In this document: piece by piece, positions 15,196 through 22,186 of the stretch
Position numbering within the stretch: the first letter of the stretch is position 1
How the letters are laid out: every line of letters starts with the position of its first letter
Origin: a virus
DNA: 22,519 bases
Strand: one strand, 5' to 3'
IMG/VR virus record: IMGVR_UViG_3300025138_000405
Coordinates: 1 to 22,519 of that record
The notes under the pieces: generated by a model
Databases searched by the model: none
What the model was told of the DNA's origin: nothing
The model's input: only the letters and a program-made list of their open reading frames with translations
Translations under genes and position numbers: made by a program

Positions 15196-17088
15196 TTAGT
15201 ATGTTGTTACTTTTCCTTTAATATCTGAATTAGGGTATTTTAATTCAAAAATACTGGGATCCATTGAAGGATAAATTATATCATTTAAAGTAGCTTTTTT
15301 AAGCCCATATTTATAAATTGAATATCCTAAATTTTCTCCATTTTTATTTGTAAATGTTACATCTTCTACAGTTTGTACTCCTTTTACCCCTCCTATTAGA
15401 TTTTCAACTTCTGAAATTATAATAGGTTGATTAACTTGCCATTTATCTATATTAAAATAATCTTTTAATTCTGTAATACATTCTAATAATACTTGTTGAT
15501 TATTATAATTTTTAAATGTGGTTATTATAAAATCTAAAGAAAAATTAATTATAAATGCATCTTTAATATTAATACTATCTGTTAGCATTCTATATTGTTC
15601 TAAATAAGTTGCTAAATTAGTTTTTGTGGCTGTATTTAGTGTTGTTAAATATTTATTTTGATCATATCCTAAAGTATATAAGTTTAAAGCTAATGGGTTT
15701 GGTATACGATTTGGTTCTGTTGTTAGTGGGGATAATTGGTCATCTTGTTGAATATATGCTTTAGCTACTCTTCCTAATTTAGGAGATAAACTTAAAGTTC
15801 TAATAATATAATCTTCTTTTGTTACTGTTCTATTTTGTGCAGCAAAATTAGCTGATATATTCATTTTTAATTCTTCTGCTGTATCTCCAGATCCCCCTCC
15901 TCTTGCTGGTTCTAAATTTGTTACTGCTATAGAATTTTTAACAAAACTTAACATTGAACTATTTATATTTGTTCTATTACTTATATTTAATACTCCTTTA
16001 TTTACTATTGTATTTGAATTTACATTAGATTTTAATCCTCCCCCCATTAAATAACTTACTGTTAAAGTTGTATTTGATGGGGCTTCTCCATAAGTTTTAG
16101 TTAATAAAAAATTTGATGGATCATAAGCTAAATCTAATTTACTTCTTCCATCTTTAATTCCTAAACCTATATTATCTGGATTTGGAATAATTTGTTCGTC
16201 TGCTTTATCACTTATCCCCGATCCAAATTGTATTTCTATAATATCATTAGGATTAATTCTTGTTATAAATCTTTTTGTTGTTTTCTTTAATTTTAAAAGA
16301 TAAGGTGTTTGTGCATTATAATGAAACAAATCTGGATCATTAGCAGCATTATTTGTAACCTCTTCAAAAATAGTATCTTGAGCTAAATAAGGTACTTCAT
16401 ACCAATTATTACCATCTGAATCTACTATAGATTCTATGGATAAAAAATCTCTTGAAAATAAACTTATTGTTTTAAATTTTTCAACAGGTCCTATAGGAAA
16501 ATTTTTAGTTGCAACTTCCCCTGATATTGCTGGGACTTTTTTCTTTAAAAGAAAATATTCTGGATTATCTAAAGTATCATAATTAAATATACTTACTGTT
16601 GTAGGATCATAACTAGATGAAAAATTAAAATCTGCATCTTGAGTTATATAAAATGATGCGTCTTCTATTGATTCAAAAGTAGAATTAGCTGTTATATTTA
16701 AAGCATAATCATAATCAGGTTCATAAGATCCGCTTATTAATTTTGAAGGGACTAATTGAGATACATCTAATATAACAGAAGCTGCTGTACTATTTTTTGG
16801 TTTATATCCTAAGGAATAAGCTAAATTATATAAACTTTCTTTATCTTCAGCTAATTGTAAAAATATTTCTCTTAATTGAGTGTCTGTATAAAAAGATAAT
16901 ACATCTCCCACATAAGCTGCCATTTCAAGAAACATCATTCCTGGATTACCTTCACTAAAATCATTAAAATTATTAGGAAAATATATTTCAGCAAATTCTG
17001 TTAGTTGTTGTTTAAAACTATTAAAATCTTTACTTAAATATTTAACGTCTTTATCTTGTGTTTTATTTGATACTTTTGTATATGCCAT
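15196..17088 (-). CDS. gp6: Baseplate wedge protein, gp6 / baseplate J family
   Basis: A 630-aa protein, close to the 660 aa of T4 gp6. Residues of about 46-103 carry the family's N-terminal signature: SEGNPGMMFLEMAAYVGDVL, SFYTDTQLREIFLQLAEDKE and LAYSLGYKPKNSTAA. At about residues 397-447 the baseplate-J core is clear: GGGSGDTAEELKMNISANFA followed by AQNRTVTKEDYIIRTLSLSP and LGRVAKAYI. In T4, gp6 dimerises and joins gp7 and gp25 to build the wedge and the iris-like ring holding the central hub. The start codon overlaps the stop of gp25 as TAATG at 17088, so translation is coupled and stoichiometry may be linked. The assignment rests on motifs, length and the adjacent gp25 gene; I am confident of it. 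Confidence 0.92.
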   Translation of the reverse strand: MAYTKVSNKTQDKDVKYLSKDFNSFKQQLTEFAEIYFPNNFNDFSEGNPGMMFLEMAAYVGDVLSFYTDTQLREIFLQLAEDKESLYNLAYSLGYKPKNSTAASVILDVSQLVPSKLISGSYEPDYDYALNITANSTFESIEDASFYITQDADFNFSSSYDPTTVSIFNYDTLDNPEYFLLKKKVPAISGEVATKNFPIGPVEKFKTISLFSRDFLSIESIVDSDGNNWYEVPYLAQDTIFEEVTNNAANDPDLFHYNAQTPYLLKLKKTTKRFITRINPNDIIEIQFGSGISDKADEQIIPNPDNIGLGIKDGRSKLDLAYDPSNFLLTKTYGEAPSNTTLTVSYLMGGGLKSNVNSNTIVNKGVLNISNRTNINSSMLSFVKNSIAVTNLEPARGGGSGDTAEELKMNISANFAAQNRTVTKEDYIIRTLSLSPKLGRVAKAYIQQDDQLSPLTTEPNRIPNPLALNLYTLGYDQNKYLTTLNTATKTNLATYLEQYRMLTDSINIKDAFIINFSLDFIITTFKNYNNQQVLLECITELKDYFNIDKWQVNQPIIISEVENLIGGVKGVQTVEDVTFTNKNGENLGYSIYKYGLKKATLNDIIYPSMDPSIFELKYPNSDIKGKVTTY

Positions 17089-17495
17089 TAGTTATAAGTT
17101 ATTTGAATAGTATCTGTTATCCCTGTTGATCTAACACTATATGTTATGTTAATAAATATAGTATGTTTGTCTTCTGAGCGTGTAGTTCTTACATCTCTTA
17201 TATTTAAATTAGGTAAATAAAATTCTACTTGTTTTTCTATTTTATCTTTTAATGCAGGTAAATCTACATTAGTTTCAAATATTAATTTTTTTAAACCTAT
17301 TCCATAATTAGGTAAATTTATTCTTTCTCCAGGATATGTTAATAAAAGACTTAAAAAATTTGTTTTAGATTGTTCTGTGGTAGTTTCAGTACCTTTAAAC
17401 ATGTTTGTTTCATCTAAAGGTAATGCAACCCCAATAGTTATATCATTATTTATATCTAATGGATTTCTTCTTGATATAGAATTATTTAAAGGCAT
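17088..17495 (-). CDS. gp25: Baseplate wedge protein, gp25 / GPW family
   Basis: A 135-aa protein, nearly the length of T4 gp25 (132 aa). It contains the family's conserved core TYPGERINLPNYGIGLKKLI (about residues 49-68), equivalent to the PGER...P.fG motif of gp25/P2 gpW proteins. This is followed by a helix (PALKDKIEKQVEFYLPNLNI) and two C-terminal strands (HTIFINITYSV, ITDTIQITYN). In contractile tails this protein links the wedge to the sheath and helps to start sheath polymerisation. The start follows the upstream stop by 6 bases, with AATAAATACTA before ATG and no Shine-Dalgarno sequence. Order gp25-gp6 is typical of contractile tail clusters. Confidence 0.93.
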   Translation of the reverse strand: MPLNNSISRRNPLDINNDITIGVALPLDETNMFKGTETTTEQSKTNFLSLLLTYPGERINLPNYGIGLKKLIFETNVDLPALKDKIEKQVEFYLPNLNIRDVRTTRSEDKHTIFINITYSVRSTGITDTIQITYN

Positions 17496-17989: not shown

Positions 17990-18928
17990 TTATATTTTTA
18001 TTACTTTAAAACTAATATTATATCCTTCTGTAAGTTCTTTAGTAATAGTATATATTCTTTCTATTGCTTTAGTGTTTCCTTGTTTTATTAAATCATCTAA
18101 TATATTTCCATAAAGTTCTTCTGCTATATTTTTTATATCATCTATTGTAGGAGAAGAAAAATTATTTGGATTTAATCCTGTTGTGTTTCCAGGTTCTCCA
18201 GTATTTTGAGTTCCTGTGTTACCTTGTGAATTTAAATCTGCACAGTCTTTTTCAAATTGTAATTTTAAAGTTAATATAAATAATTTTATTTTTATTATTT
18301 GATTTTCTAATGCTTCAATTTTATTTTTTAATATTAGAATTTTATCTACAACTTCTTGGGCTTGATCTTTATAAAAATTAAGCATATTAGGAATACTATT
18401 TATTAATCCTGATATTTCTCTTACCTTAGCTTTTCCAAAATCAATCTTATCTATTAATTGTGCTATTACTAAACCATTAATAGCTCCTACTCCTCCTACT
18501 GATACTTGAGAAGCTAAAGCAGCGGGAGAAACGGCTATTACTTTATTTAATGCATCCGTTATTGGTTTTAAAGCTTCTGATATTGTGTTTATTACTCCAA
18601 CTGCCCCACCTTCATTTAATATATCTGATAGATTATCATAAAGTTTTGTTAATTTTTGTTGAGATTTTGATAAAGGTTCTTCTAATTTTTGAAGTTTATT
18701 TAATTCATTATTTATTTTTTTATCAAATTTTTCTTTTCCTTCTTTACTACATGTATTTGGGTTTATATCTGCTTTTAATTTTTCTACTATTTCTTGGGGA
18801 TTTGTAGGTATTTCGTTTTTTAATTCATCTATTTTTTTTCTACCTTCTTCTTCAATTTGGTCTTTTCCATTAGATATTATTTGTGATACTTGATTTGTTA
18901 TTATACTTCTTATTGATTGTGTAGACAT
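17990..18928 (-). CDS. Long coiled-coil protein in the baseplate cluster
   Basis: A 312-aa protein that is almost wholly helical. Residues of about 20-105 are charged heptad-like sequence (QIEEEGRKKIDELKNEIPTN, KKINNELNKLQKLEEPLSKS). Residues of about 105-165 are a Gly/Ala/Ile-rich hydrophobic stretch (GGAVGVINTISEALKPITDA, SVGGVGAINGLVIAQLI). A second coiled coil follows (VVDKILILKNKIEALENQII, KIKLFILTLKLQF). The C-terminus includes a Gly/Asn/Thr-rich linker (about residues 236-254) and ends in a short globular tail. This hydrophobic centre flanked by coiled coils recalls tape-measure-like or membrane-active virion proteins, but the length is far too short for a normal tape measure. Its neighbours are the spike-like protein and gp25, so a hub-internal role is possible. 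Function remains unknown. Confidence 0.6.
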   Translation of the reverse strand: MSTQSIRSIITNQVSQIISNGKDQIEEEGRKKIDELKNEIPTNPQEIVEKLKADINPNTCSKEGKEKFDKKINNELNKLQKLEEPLSKSQQKLTKLYDNLSDILNEGGAVGVINTISEALKPITDALNKVIAVSPAALASQVSVGGVGAINGLVIAQLIDKIDFGKAKVREISGLINSIPNMLNFYKDQAQEVVDKILILKNKIEALENQIIKIKLFILTLKLQFEKDCADLNSQGNTGTQNTGEPGNTTGLNPNNFSSPTIDDIKNIAEELYGNILDDLIKQGNTKAIERIYTITKELTEGYNISFKVIKI

Positions 18929-18929
18929 T

Positions 18930-19400
18930 TTATGCTATTTTTGTTATATCACTTTTTATTACCCCTATTTGTTTTACCAATTTTTTAATTCGATTACGAG
19001 TTTCTAATAAAGCCCCAGCATTAGCAGGATTTAATCCTGTTGGTCCTCCGGGAGCTGTTACTATATATGATACTTTATATTCTATATCTGCTGTTAATCC
19101 ATATATTACATCTAATATTTTATGTAATAAATCATGTAATTCATTTCCTAAAACTGCTGGTTCTGTTGGGAGTTTTTTAAGATCTAATCCTAAATAAATA
19201 TTAGGTGCATTTATTATAAATTTACTTTCATCATCATCACTAGTATCAAAATGAAAACTTCCATTAGTACTAAAACCTATAACTTCATTTGAAAATAATA
19301 AAATACTGTCTGTTTTAGCATTAAATAATAATCTGTCTGAATTTATTACTACTTGATTTCCATCATATAATAGTGGTGATTTTGGTGTGTATTTTTCCAT
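18930..19400 (-). CDS. Beta-rich spike-like protein (candidate gp5 C-terminal needle)
   Basis: A 156-aa protein. Residues 13-71 are short alternating beta strands: GNQVVINSDRLLFNAKTDSI, LLFSNEVIGFSTNGSFHFDT and SKFIINAPNIYLGLD. This repetitive VxINSxRLxFNAK...ILLFS...IGFS pattern is like the triple-stranded beta-helix or prism of phage central spikes, which in T4 is the C-terminal part of gp5. The segment PAVLGNELHDLLHKILDVIY (81-100) starts a helical C-terminal half. It sits directly downstream of the M15 peptidase (3 bases apart) and two genes after the OB-fold hub protein. I infer a puncturing needle or spike base. Trimerisation and the spike role are untested. Confidence 0.6.
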   Translation of the reverse strand: MEKYTPKSPLLYDGNQVVINSDRLLFNAKTDSILLFSNEVIGFSTNGSFHFDTSDDDESKFIINAPNIYLGLDLKKLPTEPAVLGNELHDLLHKILDVIYGLTADIEYKVSYIVTAPGGPTGLNPANAGALLETRNRIKKLVKQIGVIKSDITKIA

Positions 19401-19403
19401 ATT

Positions 19404-20039
19404 TTATGGTATTAAACTTGGTGTTTGTATAGGTAGAGGTATAATTGTATTAAATTGACCTGGATTTAAATGATGTGTATATATACCTGTCCTTAATGTA
19501 TGGTGTTTTTTATAAGTTTGGTGAGTGTTTTCAAATTCAGATGCTAAACTAATAAGATTTTTAAAATCATCATGAACATAAGCTATATGAACCCATGAAT
19601 TTACAGTATGTGTACTTGTAGTTTCTACATCTCCACCAGATTTTATTCTAGATTTACCCCTTTCTGGGAATTCCCATATTACTTGGTAAAATTTAGGTAT
19701 ATACATTAATATCCATTCAAATATTTCTTTACTACTAAATTCTCCTGTTGGATCATATATATCTGCTGCTTCTCCATATAAATGATTACTTTTACTAACT
19801 CCTCCTACTGCTGAATTTAAATCTTCACATCTAAAACCTGATGATATAGCTAAGTTAGGAAATGCTTCTTTTATAGGTTGTATACACTTTTTAAAAAGAA
19901 GCACTGCATTAGTATTCACTTCTTCAGCTGAAGCATCTTCACCAAGTGAATCTACATCTATTCCTGGAGTATTATCTATTTTATTATTATTAGCATAATC
20001 AGAATGTATAAAATCCCCTATTGTAAATTTATTTGCCAT
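19404..20039 (-). CDS. M15-family zinc peptidase (tail-associated cell-wall hydrolase)
   Basis: A 211-aa protein with the M15A (peptidase M15) signature. SSGFR (66-70) leads into SKSNHLYGEAADIYD (82-96), where His86 and Asp93 are likely zinc ligands. SWVHIAY (148-154) supplies the third, His151. M15 enzymes are L,D- or D,D-peptidases that cut cross-links or stem peptides in peptidoglycan. There is no signal peptide. It is embedded between the OB-fold hub gene (one base upstream) and the spike-like gene (3 bases downstream), so its likely job is local cell-wall digestion during injection, the role of the lysozyme domain of T4 gp5, rather than host lysis. A lysis endolysin is the alternative. 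Confidence 0.85.
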   Translation of the reverse strand: MANKFTIGDFIHSDYANNNKIDNTPGIDVDSLGEDASAEEVNTNAVLLFKKCIQPIKEAFPNLAISSGFRCEDLNSAVGGVSKSNHLYGEAADIYDPTGEFSSKEIFEWILMYIPKFYQVIWEFPERGKSRIKSGGDVETTSTHTVNSWVHIAYVHDDFKNLISLASEFENTHQTYKKHHTLRTGIYTHHLNPGQFNTIIPLPIQTPSLIP

Positions 20040-20040
20040 A

Positions 20041-21018
20041 TTATCCTAATTCTTGATTAATATCTATTCCTATTAAACTATAATTATCACCAAAAACAAG
20101 TGGTGTTGAACCATCTTTTACAGTAACATTTTGTTCTGTTTCAGATATATCATAAGTTACTCTATCTTTTAATGGTAACATTTGTAAATCTCTATCTTGT
20201 AAATCTGAAGCAGGAATATCACTAGGAGTAGACATTACTATGTCATCTTCTATATTAGACGGCATATTTTCATTACTAATATCTGGTTCTTCATTGTCTG
20301 ATATTTCATATATGTCAGTTAAATATGATGCATCATTTAAAGATGCTACGTTTATATTTAATTTATCTCCTTCATACATATAAATACTTGAATTATCATT
20401 ATTTATATTTTCTTTTATGTTAATATATTCACTATTTTCATCTAATTCTTGTTGACCATTTCTTAAAATTATATTTGGATTAGTAAATTCTGAATTAGAT
20501 CCAAATTTTATAAAATTACCATATCTTCCTTCTACAGAAACATCTCCTTCTTTTATATGTAAAGGTCTTATTTTTTCTATTTCTTTAAAATTTTTTCCAA
20601 AATTTATATAATAATCCTCATCTTGTGGTTTATTAACCCCACCCCCCTCTACTTCTTCATTACTTAGTGTATTAGAATTATTTATTAAAGATATAGGTAA
20701 TGTATTATGGTTAGGAATATTATGTACTCCTATAGGAGGAAAATAATAAGAATCAATACTATTATTTGTTAAATAATTAGAAGAGGGAGCATTTACTATG
20801 TATATTAATTCATTTACAGTTGGTATTTGAGTAAAATTATAATTTATAGCTTTAGCTACAGGTAAATATTTAATTTGAGATAGATTAGGAGTTGGTTGAT
20901 GTAATTCTGAAAAAGATACCATCCCTATAGAATTCCATCGTCCTAATTCATTCCATCTATTATGATTTGGTTCTGTGAATACTTCTTCTACTCTTACTAC
21001 TCTTAAATTAGTCTGCAT
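20041..21018 (-). CDS. gp5: Baseplate hub protein, gp5-like OB-fold type
   Basis: A 325-aa protein. Residues of about 20-108 resemble the N-terminal OB-fold region of gp5-type hub proteins: RWNELGRWNSIGMVSFSELH, LPVAKAINYNFTQIPTVNEL and YYFPPIGVHNIPNHNTLP. Residues 147-174 (EIEKIRPLHIKEGDVSVEGR then YGNFIKFGS) match the EGDVxxEGRxGNxIRFGS pattern that I recall from hub proteins of T4-like marine phages. The C-terminal 100 residues are acidic and low in complexity (DNEEPDISNENMPSNIEDDI). T4 gp5 (575 aa) also contains a lysozyme and a beta-helix; here neither is present, and both appear as separate downstream genes. Its start overlaps the preceding gene by 11 bases, indicating translational coupling. 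Confidence 0.75.
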   Translation of the reverse strand: MQTNLRVVRVEEVFTEPNHNRWNELGRWNSIGMVSFSELHQPTPNLSQIKYLPVAKAINYNFTQIPTVNELIYIVNAPSSNYLTNNSIDSYYFPPIGVHNIPNHNTLPISLINNSNTLSNEEVEGGGVNKPQDEDYYINFGKNFKEIEKIRPLHIKEGDVSVEGRYGNFIKFGSNSEFTNPNIILRNGQQELDENSEYINIKENINNDNSSIYMYEGDKLNINVASLNDASYLTDIYEISDNEEPDISNENMPSNIEDDIVMSTPSDIPASDLQDRDLQMLPLKDRVTYDISETEQNVTVKDGSTPLVFGDNYSLIGIDINQELG

Positions 21019-21409: not shown

Positions 21410-22186
21410 TTAGATTTTTACATATCCTGTTTCATTAAATTCTGTATATAATTTTTTATATACTATTTTTAATTTTTTAGTAACTTTAGTTATTATAGGA
21501 GTTTCTACATCTGTTATTTCTCTTATATAAATGTAAAGTGCTTTTTTATTAAAAATTTCTAAATTTTCTCTACGTTTAAATAATATATTAATAGCATCAG
21601 CTACTTTTCTATCTTTATCTTTTTTAAACATAGTAAACATATGTTTATCAATATATTCTGTAAAATAATCTATAAAATCTTTTATTTCTTGTTTTCGTCC
21701 ATCTCTTCCTAATTGATGTAATACACCATCATCTTCATCTGCTTTTAAAACGTCTACTTTTTGTTTTTTCTTTTTATAATTGTTATTATTATATAAGATA
21801 AGATAATTTTTACCTACAATTGAAAAATAACTAAATGCTTTAGTACCTTTTTCTGGTTTAAAATAGTCTAATTTTTCTAAAAGAAAACAAATTACTTCAT
21901 GTTTTAAATCTTCTAAATCATCTACTTCTGTATAGTAGAATTTGAATGTATGTATAAGATTTTCTGCTAATTTGTAGAATGGATAATGGATTCTTTTTGC
22001 AAATATATTGTCTCTTTCTTCTTGATTTGAAGACGCTAAATATTCTGCTATAGCTGCGTCTGTATCTGGTGTAAAATATTGTTTTTTTGTTCTTTTTCTT
22101 CCTCGTTTTTTAGGTTGAGGATCAAGAGAACCAGTGATTACTGGTTCTGGAGGGGGACTAGGGGCATACTTAAGTTTATTTGACAT
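21410..22186 (-). CDS. gp55: Late-gene sigma factor, gp55-like
   Basis: A 258-aa protein. Residues of about 66-138 form a sigma-70 region 2-like helical block: HYPFYKLAENLIHTFKFYYT, DDLEDLKHEVICFLLEKLDY, PEKGTKAFSYFSIVGKNYLI and NNNNYKKKKQK. The KAFSYFSIVGKNYLI segment is the most telling part for gp55-type phage sigma factors. In T4, gp55 (185 aa) joins host core RNA polymerase, and with gp33 and the gp45 clamp directs transcription from TATAAATA late promoters. This protein is longer, with a Pro-rich, very basic N-terminus (PKKRGRKRTKKQYF, 25-38) and a helical C-terminal half. It lies just upstream of the baseplate genes, a good position to control them. No gp33 or clamp gene is seen within this window. 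Confidence 0.85.
   Translation of the reverse strand: MSNKLKYAPSPPPEPVITGSLDPQPKKRGRKRTKKQYFTPDTDAAIAEYLASSNQEERDNIFAKRIHYPFYKLAENLIHTFKFYYTEVDDLEDLKHEVICFLLEKLDYFKPEKGTKAFSYFSIVGKNYLILYNNNNYKKKKQKVDVLKADEDDGVLHQLGRDGRKQEIKDFIDYFTEYIDKHMFTMFKKDKDRKVADAINILFKRRENLEIFNKKALYIYIREITDVETPIITKVTKKLKIVYKKLYTEFNETGYVKI

Follow-up and report, generated by a model that had tools for sequence, protein, structure and literature searches.

A probable cell-puncturing device encoded by three adjacent genes, with an M15 peptidase in an exchangeable slot, in an uncultured marine phage

A three-gene set in a contractile-tail baseplate locus

Three adjacent genes of an uncultured marine virus of bacteria, a phage with a contractile tail, probably specify its central cell-puncturing device, dividing among three chains the role of T4 gp5, with a zinc peptidase of the M15 family docked non-covalently. 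The sequence, called the window here, is an IMG/VR virus record of 22,519 bases and 27% G+C. In T4, gp5 has the domain order OB-fold, lysozyme and needle, and cleavage between Ser351 and Ala352, in the linker between lysozyme and needle, contributes to a ripe device of nine chains (PMC3004832). A preliminary description of the window had suggested that the three genes mirror this domain order as parts of a single device. That reading has stood up: since relatives carry OB-M15 and OB-needle fusions and exchange the enzyme in the slot, we infer, with good support, that adaptor, enzyme and needle belong to one gp5-like device.

All of the genes concerned lie on the minus strand. The first of the three (20041..21018) encodes a 325-aa OB-type spike adaptor, assigned from its reading frame, its AF2 model, the Foldseek list and the fusions in relatives. 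One base separates it from the gene of a 211-aa free Peptidase_M15_3 in the enzyme slot (19404..20039), assigned from PF08291, the match to 1LBU, the junction sequence and the M15 tree. Three bases farther on is the gene of a 156-aa needle-like protein (18930..19400). Viral contigs contain more than 500 relatives of this protein, and in more than 80 loci it is fused to the OB protein. The minus-strand ORFs thus bear out the adjacency and the spacing first noted. In the order of transcription, the 124-aa, 325-aa, 211-aa, 156-aa, 312-aa and 148-aa genes are followed by homologues of gp25 and gp6. The 312-aa coiled-coil-like protein (17990..18928) comes after the needle in all arrangements, a gene order conserved in the loci. 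The gp25-like baseplate wedge protein (17088..17495; PF04965, E 1.3e-11) and the gp6-like baseplate wedge protein (15196..17088; PHROG baseplate wedge subunit, E 2e-18) are encoded two genes beyond the three-gene set on the same strand, which marks this as a contractile-tail baseplate locus. T4 gene 5 is likewise positioned shortly before gene 6.

The end of the 325-aa gene contains the sequence AGGA four bases ahead of the M15 start codon (ATG), a position from which the M15 is likely to be translated separately from the OB gene, with coupling. Short gaps are the rule elsewhere, too. In 53 distinct loci with a free M15 gene, the gap between OB and M15 is at most 11 bases in 49, and that between M15 and needle is at most 13 bases in 52. 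Such spacing, kept across these loci, indicates that the order OB, M15, needle is not due to chance.

Several other features of the window were recorded. A 258-aa protein (21410-22186), encoded two genes ahead of the spike set, has weak similarity to sigma-70 (NCBIfam E 0.0012, below the cut-off); a similar-sized gene holds the same place in relatives, and the product is perhaps a late sigma factor. Adjacent similar proteins of 221 and 223 aa (365-1030 and 1110-1781) appear to have arisen by tandem duplication within the tail region, and positions 3-326 encode the first part of a homing endonuclease-type protein, truncated where the contig ends (PHROG 447 is the best match; PHROG 314 gave E 2e-6).

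The enzyme is fused, free, exchanged or lost in relatives

Some 250 related loci were classified with HMMs of the window families. The state of the window, with OB, free M15 and needle as three genes, was found in 67 of 181 loci (34 with near copies removed). OB and M15 are fused and followed by the needle in 17 of the 181 (12 with near copies removed; L016, L041, L047 and L072 are examples), and at least 10 loci have an OB-Amidase_2 fusion in the same place before the needle (6 without near copies in the 181-locus set; e.g., L058, L064, L073 and L085). An OB-M23 fusion precedes a separate needle in L011. Matches just under the cut-off point to OB proteins fused to a VanY-like domain in L332 (E 2.9e-5) and to a C39-like domain in L347 (E 2.5e-4). 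The enzyme is absent, with OB and needle retained, in L069, L082, L083, L309 and L344. Wherever the needle is separate, any recognized enzyme sits between OB and needle. The tail of the window OB protein and the head of its M15 align end to end with the fused proteins of L041 and L016, so that, judged by the L041 linker, the gene break falls in a linker that tolerates breaks.

More than 80 contigs encode OB and needle as one gene (about 380-500 aa) without an enzyme. The single polypeptide is also present in Flavobacterium phage immuto, Microcystis phage Mel-JY01 and the huge (484-kb) phage LR756508. The immuto and Mel-JY01 proteins are detectable homologues of both the window OB and the window needle, but theirs is one polypeptide with no enzyme inside, and Mel-JY01 has a GH19-like gene directly downstream. 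A clade with fused OB and needle (L114, L126, L132, L141, L146, L148, L152, L159 and L348) has a free GH19-like gene about 3-4 kb upstream of the spike, and L247 and L262 have a 156-aa M15 at a similar place. In L035, L180, L187 and L189, an OB core of 226-233 aa is followed by 284-367 bases before the M15; the gap in L035 is filled by a 129-aa ORF, and in loci of this type the OB linker may be an additional separate gene, making four genes in all.

The adaptor and the needle-like protein

Neither the OB protein nor the needle protein gave anything usable in Pfam, PHROGs or NCBIfam, and PDB profile searches with the two families returned no relative, or coiled-coil chance matches. The AF2 model of the 325-aa protein, from 37 aligned sequences, has five strands in residues 1-105 (20704..21018, minus strand; pLDDT about 80-90) and low confidence in the remainder. 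This N-terminal domain is thus predicted to be a five-stranded barrel, and an OB-fold is likely. A Foldseek search of the model against the PDB (350,542 chains) listed 32 chains, none significant (best E 0.56). The non-significant list includes T4 gp5 three times (E 2-6), the spike of Mu, baseplate chains of Mu, Milano and a Streptomyces injection system, and several OB-fold proteins (1jb3, 6esq, S28-type ribosomal proteins). In BFVD the model matched a protein annotated as GH19 (E 1e-5) and, at E about 0.03, proteins from two phages labelled "baseplate hub subunit and tail lysozyme". The EGDVSVEGR...IKFGS motif to which the preliminary description drew attention was found, as EGDVSVEGRYGNFIKFGS, at residues 157-174 (20497..20550, minus strand). 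It is conserved in relatives, with E157, G158, D159, G164, R165 and G167 invariant in 37 of them, and is present in OB-needle fused proteins too.

The 156-aa protein had been described as a beta-strand-repeat protein. This holds for about residues 14-73 (19182..19361, minus strand), a beta-repeat-like segment that is the best-conserved stretch of the protein (NQV-INSDRL-FNAK-DSILLFS---IGFSTNGSFHFDT) and in which hydrophobic positions recur every 7-8 residues (p 0.0025 and 0.004 by shuffling; lags 7 and 8, two scales). It does not hold for residues 86-148 (18957..19145, minus strand), which AF2 models confidently as a C-terminal helical hairpin (pLDDT about 75-95). The beta region is without structure in the AF2 monomer (pLDDT about 41-60), as it would be in any obligate trimer modeled as a single chain, and this is uninformative; a triple-stranded prism would not be visible in such a model. 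Foldseek with this monomer model gave no match, as expected with the beta region unstructured. In the spike of a huge phage (L088:8476-9933), the C-terminal sequence HTHPSPVGPTGPPPPTSPGG resembles the metal-binding apex of simple spikes.

The comparison with T4 gp5 came out divided. The proposed device is like that of gp5-gp27 in the order of adaptor (here with a likely OB-fold), wall-cutting enzyme and needle, and in its place shortly before gene 6. Enzyme and needle are separate chains in both, by the S351/A352 cleavage in T4 (PMC3004832) and by a gene break at the corresponding place here. In contrast, the window has three genes rather than one polypeptide, Peptidase_M15_3 rather than a lysozyme domain, and a short needle with a helical end; T4 gp5C consists of octapeptides of another motif, and no tandem VXG (VXGXXXXX) repeats were found in the 156-aa protein. 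hhalign against T4 gp5 detected no homology (probability 1.8% and 0.1%), a weak test because a single T4 sequence was used. Descent from T4 gp5 is therefore not supported: hhalign was negative, the repeats are missing and the enzyme is of another family, and the Foldseek matches are suggestive only.

The three proteins might instead form a side component of the baseplate, such as an enzyme carrier attached to the hub, with the central spike being a protein encoded outside the window. In favor of this, none of the solved spikes matched the fold of the OB model significantly, and in phage A-1(L) enzymes are carried in the hub protein rather than in the spike (PMC10966104). We nevertheless consider a side component unlikely, as the order of OB, enzyme and beta repeat is that of gp5 and the weak matches of the OB model are mostly spikes and OB-folds. 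Moreover, a single polypeptide of OB-fold and repeats, as in the OB-needle proteins of relatives, is the usual layout of spikes (P2 gpV, Mu gp45, VgrG). In type VI secretion, evolved and cargo VgrG spikes are like the proposed device in layout, in that the enzyme can be fused to the spike or carried non-covalently; unlike it, VgrG serves the delivery of secretion effectors and not DNA entry.

The M15 peptidase

The 211-aa protein belongs to Peptidase_M15_3 (PF08291, E 2e-11), scoring 44.4 bits against a curated cut-off of 23.2, and the M15 family profile matched the zinc D-Ala-D-Ala carboxypeptidase 1LBU in the PDB (E 1.7e-5). The slot is therefore occupied by an enzyme other than a lysozyme, as first proposed, and the three residues then named are conserved in relatives. 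These presumed zinc ligands are His86 (19782..19784), Asp93 (19761..19763) and His151 (19587..19589), all on the minus strand. H86 and D93 do not vary among 27 M15 relatives, in which H151 is almost as constant; an alignment with endolysins in it shows no variation at any of the three positions. Glu123 (19671..19673, minus strand), invariant in slot M15s and endolysins, is a candidate catalytic acid/base. Residues from about 160 to 211 (19407..19562, minus strand) form a C-terminal extension that is a candidate docking tail. Its motif R-x-G-x-Y-T-H-G-I-x-x-A-D is conserved in the free slot M15s and in fused L041, and the extension is not present in six other phage M15s compared. With L003 (its M15 at 1810-2445) as the reference, dN/dS in the window is 0.70 for M15, 0.48 for OB, 0.21 for the needle and 0.09 for the 312-aa gene; the M15 evolves faster than these neighbors, a point against the three-chain reading. 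Two relatives depart from the intact enzyme. The slot M15 of L024 (5433-5993) has Ser in place of the zinc ligand His151 (SWISIS) and is possibly inactive. That of L028 (3355-3924) is split into 111-aa and 55-aa ORFs and is intact in the near relative L027, reflecting either a sequencing error or decay.

The best PHROG match of the M15 is "endolysin" (phrog_894), and in seven records of the clade, all incomplete, M15 occurs once each and neither a T4-type lysozyme (PF00959) nor Amidase_2 was found. Both facts would suit an endolysin gene that merely happens to be located among baseplate genes. However, the exact position is kept in dozens of loci, relatives carry OB-M15 fusions at the same place or have the M15 replaced by an OB-fused M23 or Amidase_2, and no holin or spanin was recognized beside the M15, which baseplate genes adjoin. 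The phage M15 endolysins of Burkholderia KS9 (gp23), DSL-LC04 and Caulobacter GB2A share the peptidase family and the zinc-site residues, but they are about 150 aa long and without the C-terminal extension, and those of KS9 and DSL-LC04 lie beside holins. In the M15 tree, the slot enzymes are on one side of a 100/99 branch, opposite seven other M15s that include these three endolysins. A virion enzyme is the reading favored by the fusions of M15 to OB, by the fixed slot and by the separate clade, and we regard an endolysin as improbable. A free M15 that acts outside the particle, processing the spike or aiding its assembly, for example as a protease in place of gp5 maturation, would fit a free gene for a peptidase in a slot adjoining the needle, but it is very improbable, because characterized M15 enzymes cleave peptidoglycan peptides, the swapping of an amidase and M23 into the same slot points to wall cutting, and enzyme-free loci occur (L069, L082).

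History of the slot

A tree of OB plus needle places the needle-separate loci on one side of a 100/99 branch and requires at least seven changes of arrangement and at least five changes of enzyme. The window is sister to L011 (100/100), from which it differs both in slot enzyme (M15 versus M23) and in arrangement (free versus fused), so that enzyme and arrangement have changed while OB and needle stayed.

The preliminary description had left the choice between a fission and an ancestral unfused state. When endolysins are used to root the M15 tree, the first lineages to branch off are OB-fused, and the fused L041 is nested deep among free M15s. A single origin of the free M15, with the free M15s and L041 held together, was rejected (p 0.002). 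Holding the early OB-fused M15s as one clade was not rejected (p 0.17), for which reason the direction from fused to free is favored only. Fission of an OB-M15 fusion is thus favored over an ancestral unfused state, not proven; the better reading of the tree would have fission occurring more than once, with at least one refusion (L041). The window M15 is on a long stem (1.3), and a fresh acquisition of M15 there is possible.

A proposed mechanism

We propose that the 325-aa protein is a trimeric OB-type adaptor that would link the hub to the needle, and that the 156-aa protein forms a needle, a short beta-prism ending in helices. Between them in the virion, the zinc peptidase would be placed non-covalently, with its conserved C-terminal tail and the flexible C-terminal linker of the adaptor probably keeping it there. 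After the needle crosses the outer membrane, the enzyme may cut peptide cross-bridges or stems. T4 reaches its multi-chain state through maturation cleavage; here the break would be in the genes themselves, and the slot would act as a cassette in which the enzyme can be fused, split off, lost or replaced. More tentatively, and at somewhat less than even probability in our judgment, the spike may be convertible as a general matter, with a conserved OB adaptor and needle, an exchangeable enzyme attached covalently or docked by its tail, and gene fission replacing the proteolytic maturation of T4. If so, phages could come to cut a different bond while leaving the rest of the spike as it is. The open-access literature that we searched, which leaves most subscription papers outside its scope, held no description of a split or swappable spike.

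The series of fused, free, swapped and lost enzymes, found among uncultured aquatic phages of a widespread family, offers a test bed for how the mechanics and the enzymology of a puncturing device are coupled, and for whether host peptidoglycan chemistry selects the slot enzyme. It also points to enzymes that are labeled as endolysins in profile libraries but are likely to belong to the virion, and it assigns a role to spike proteins that go unrecognized by Pfam, PHROGs and NCBIfam. In L321, L322, L323, L326 and L330, the OB proteins are 567-804 aa long and have a slot domain without a Pfam match (and, for L321 and L330, without a PHROGs match); these domains are possible new wall-cutting enzymes.
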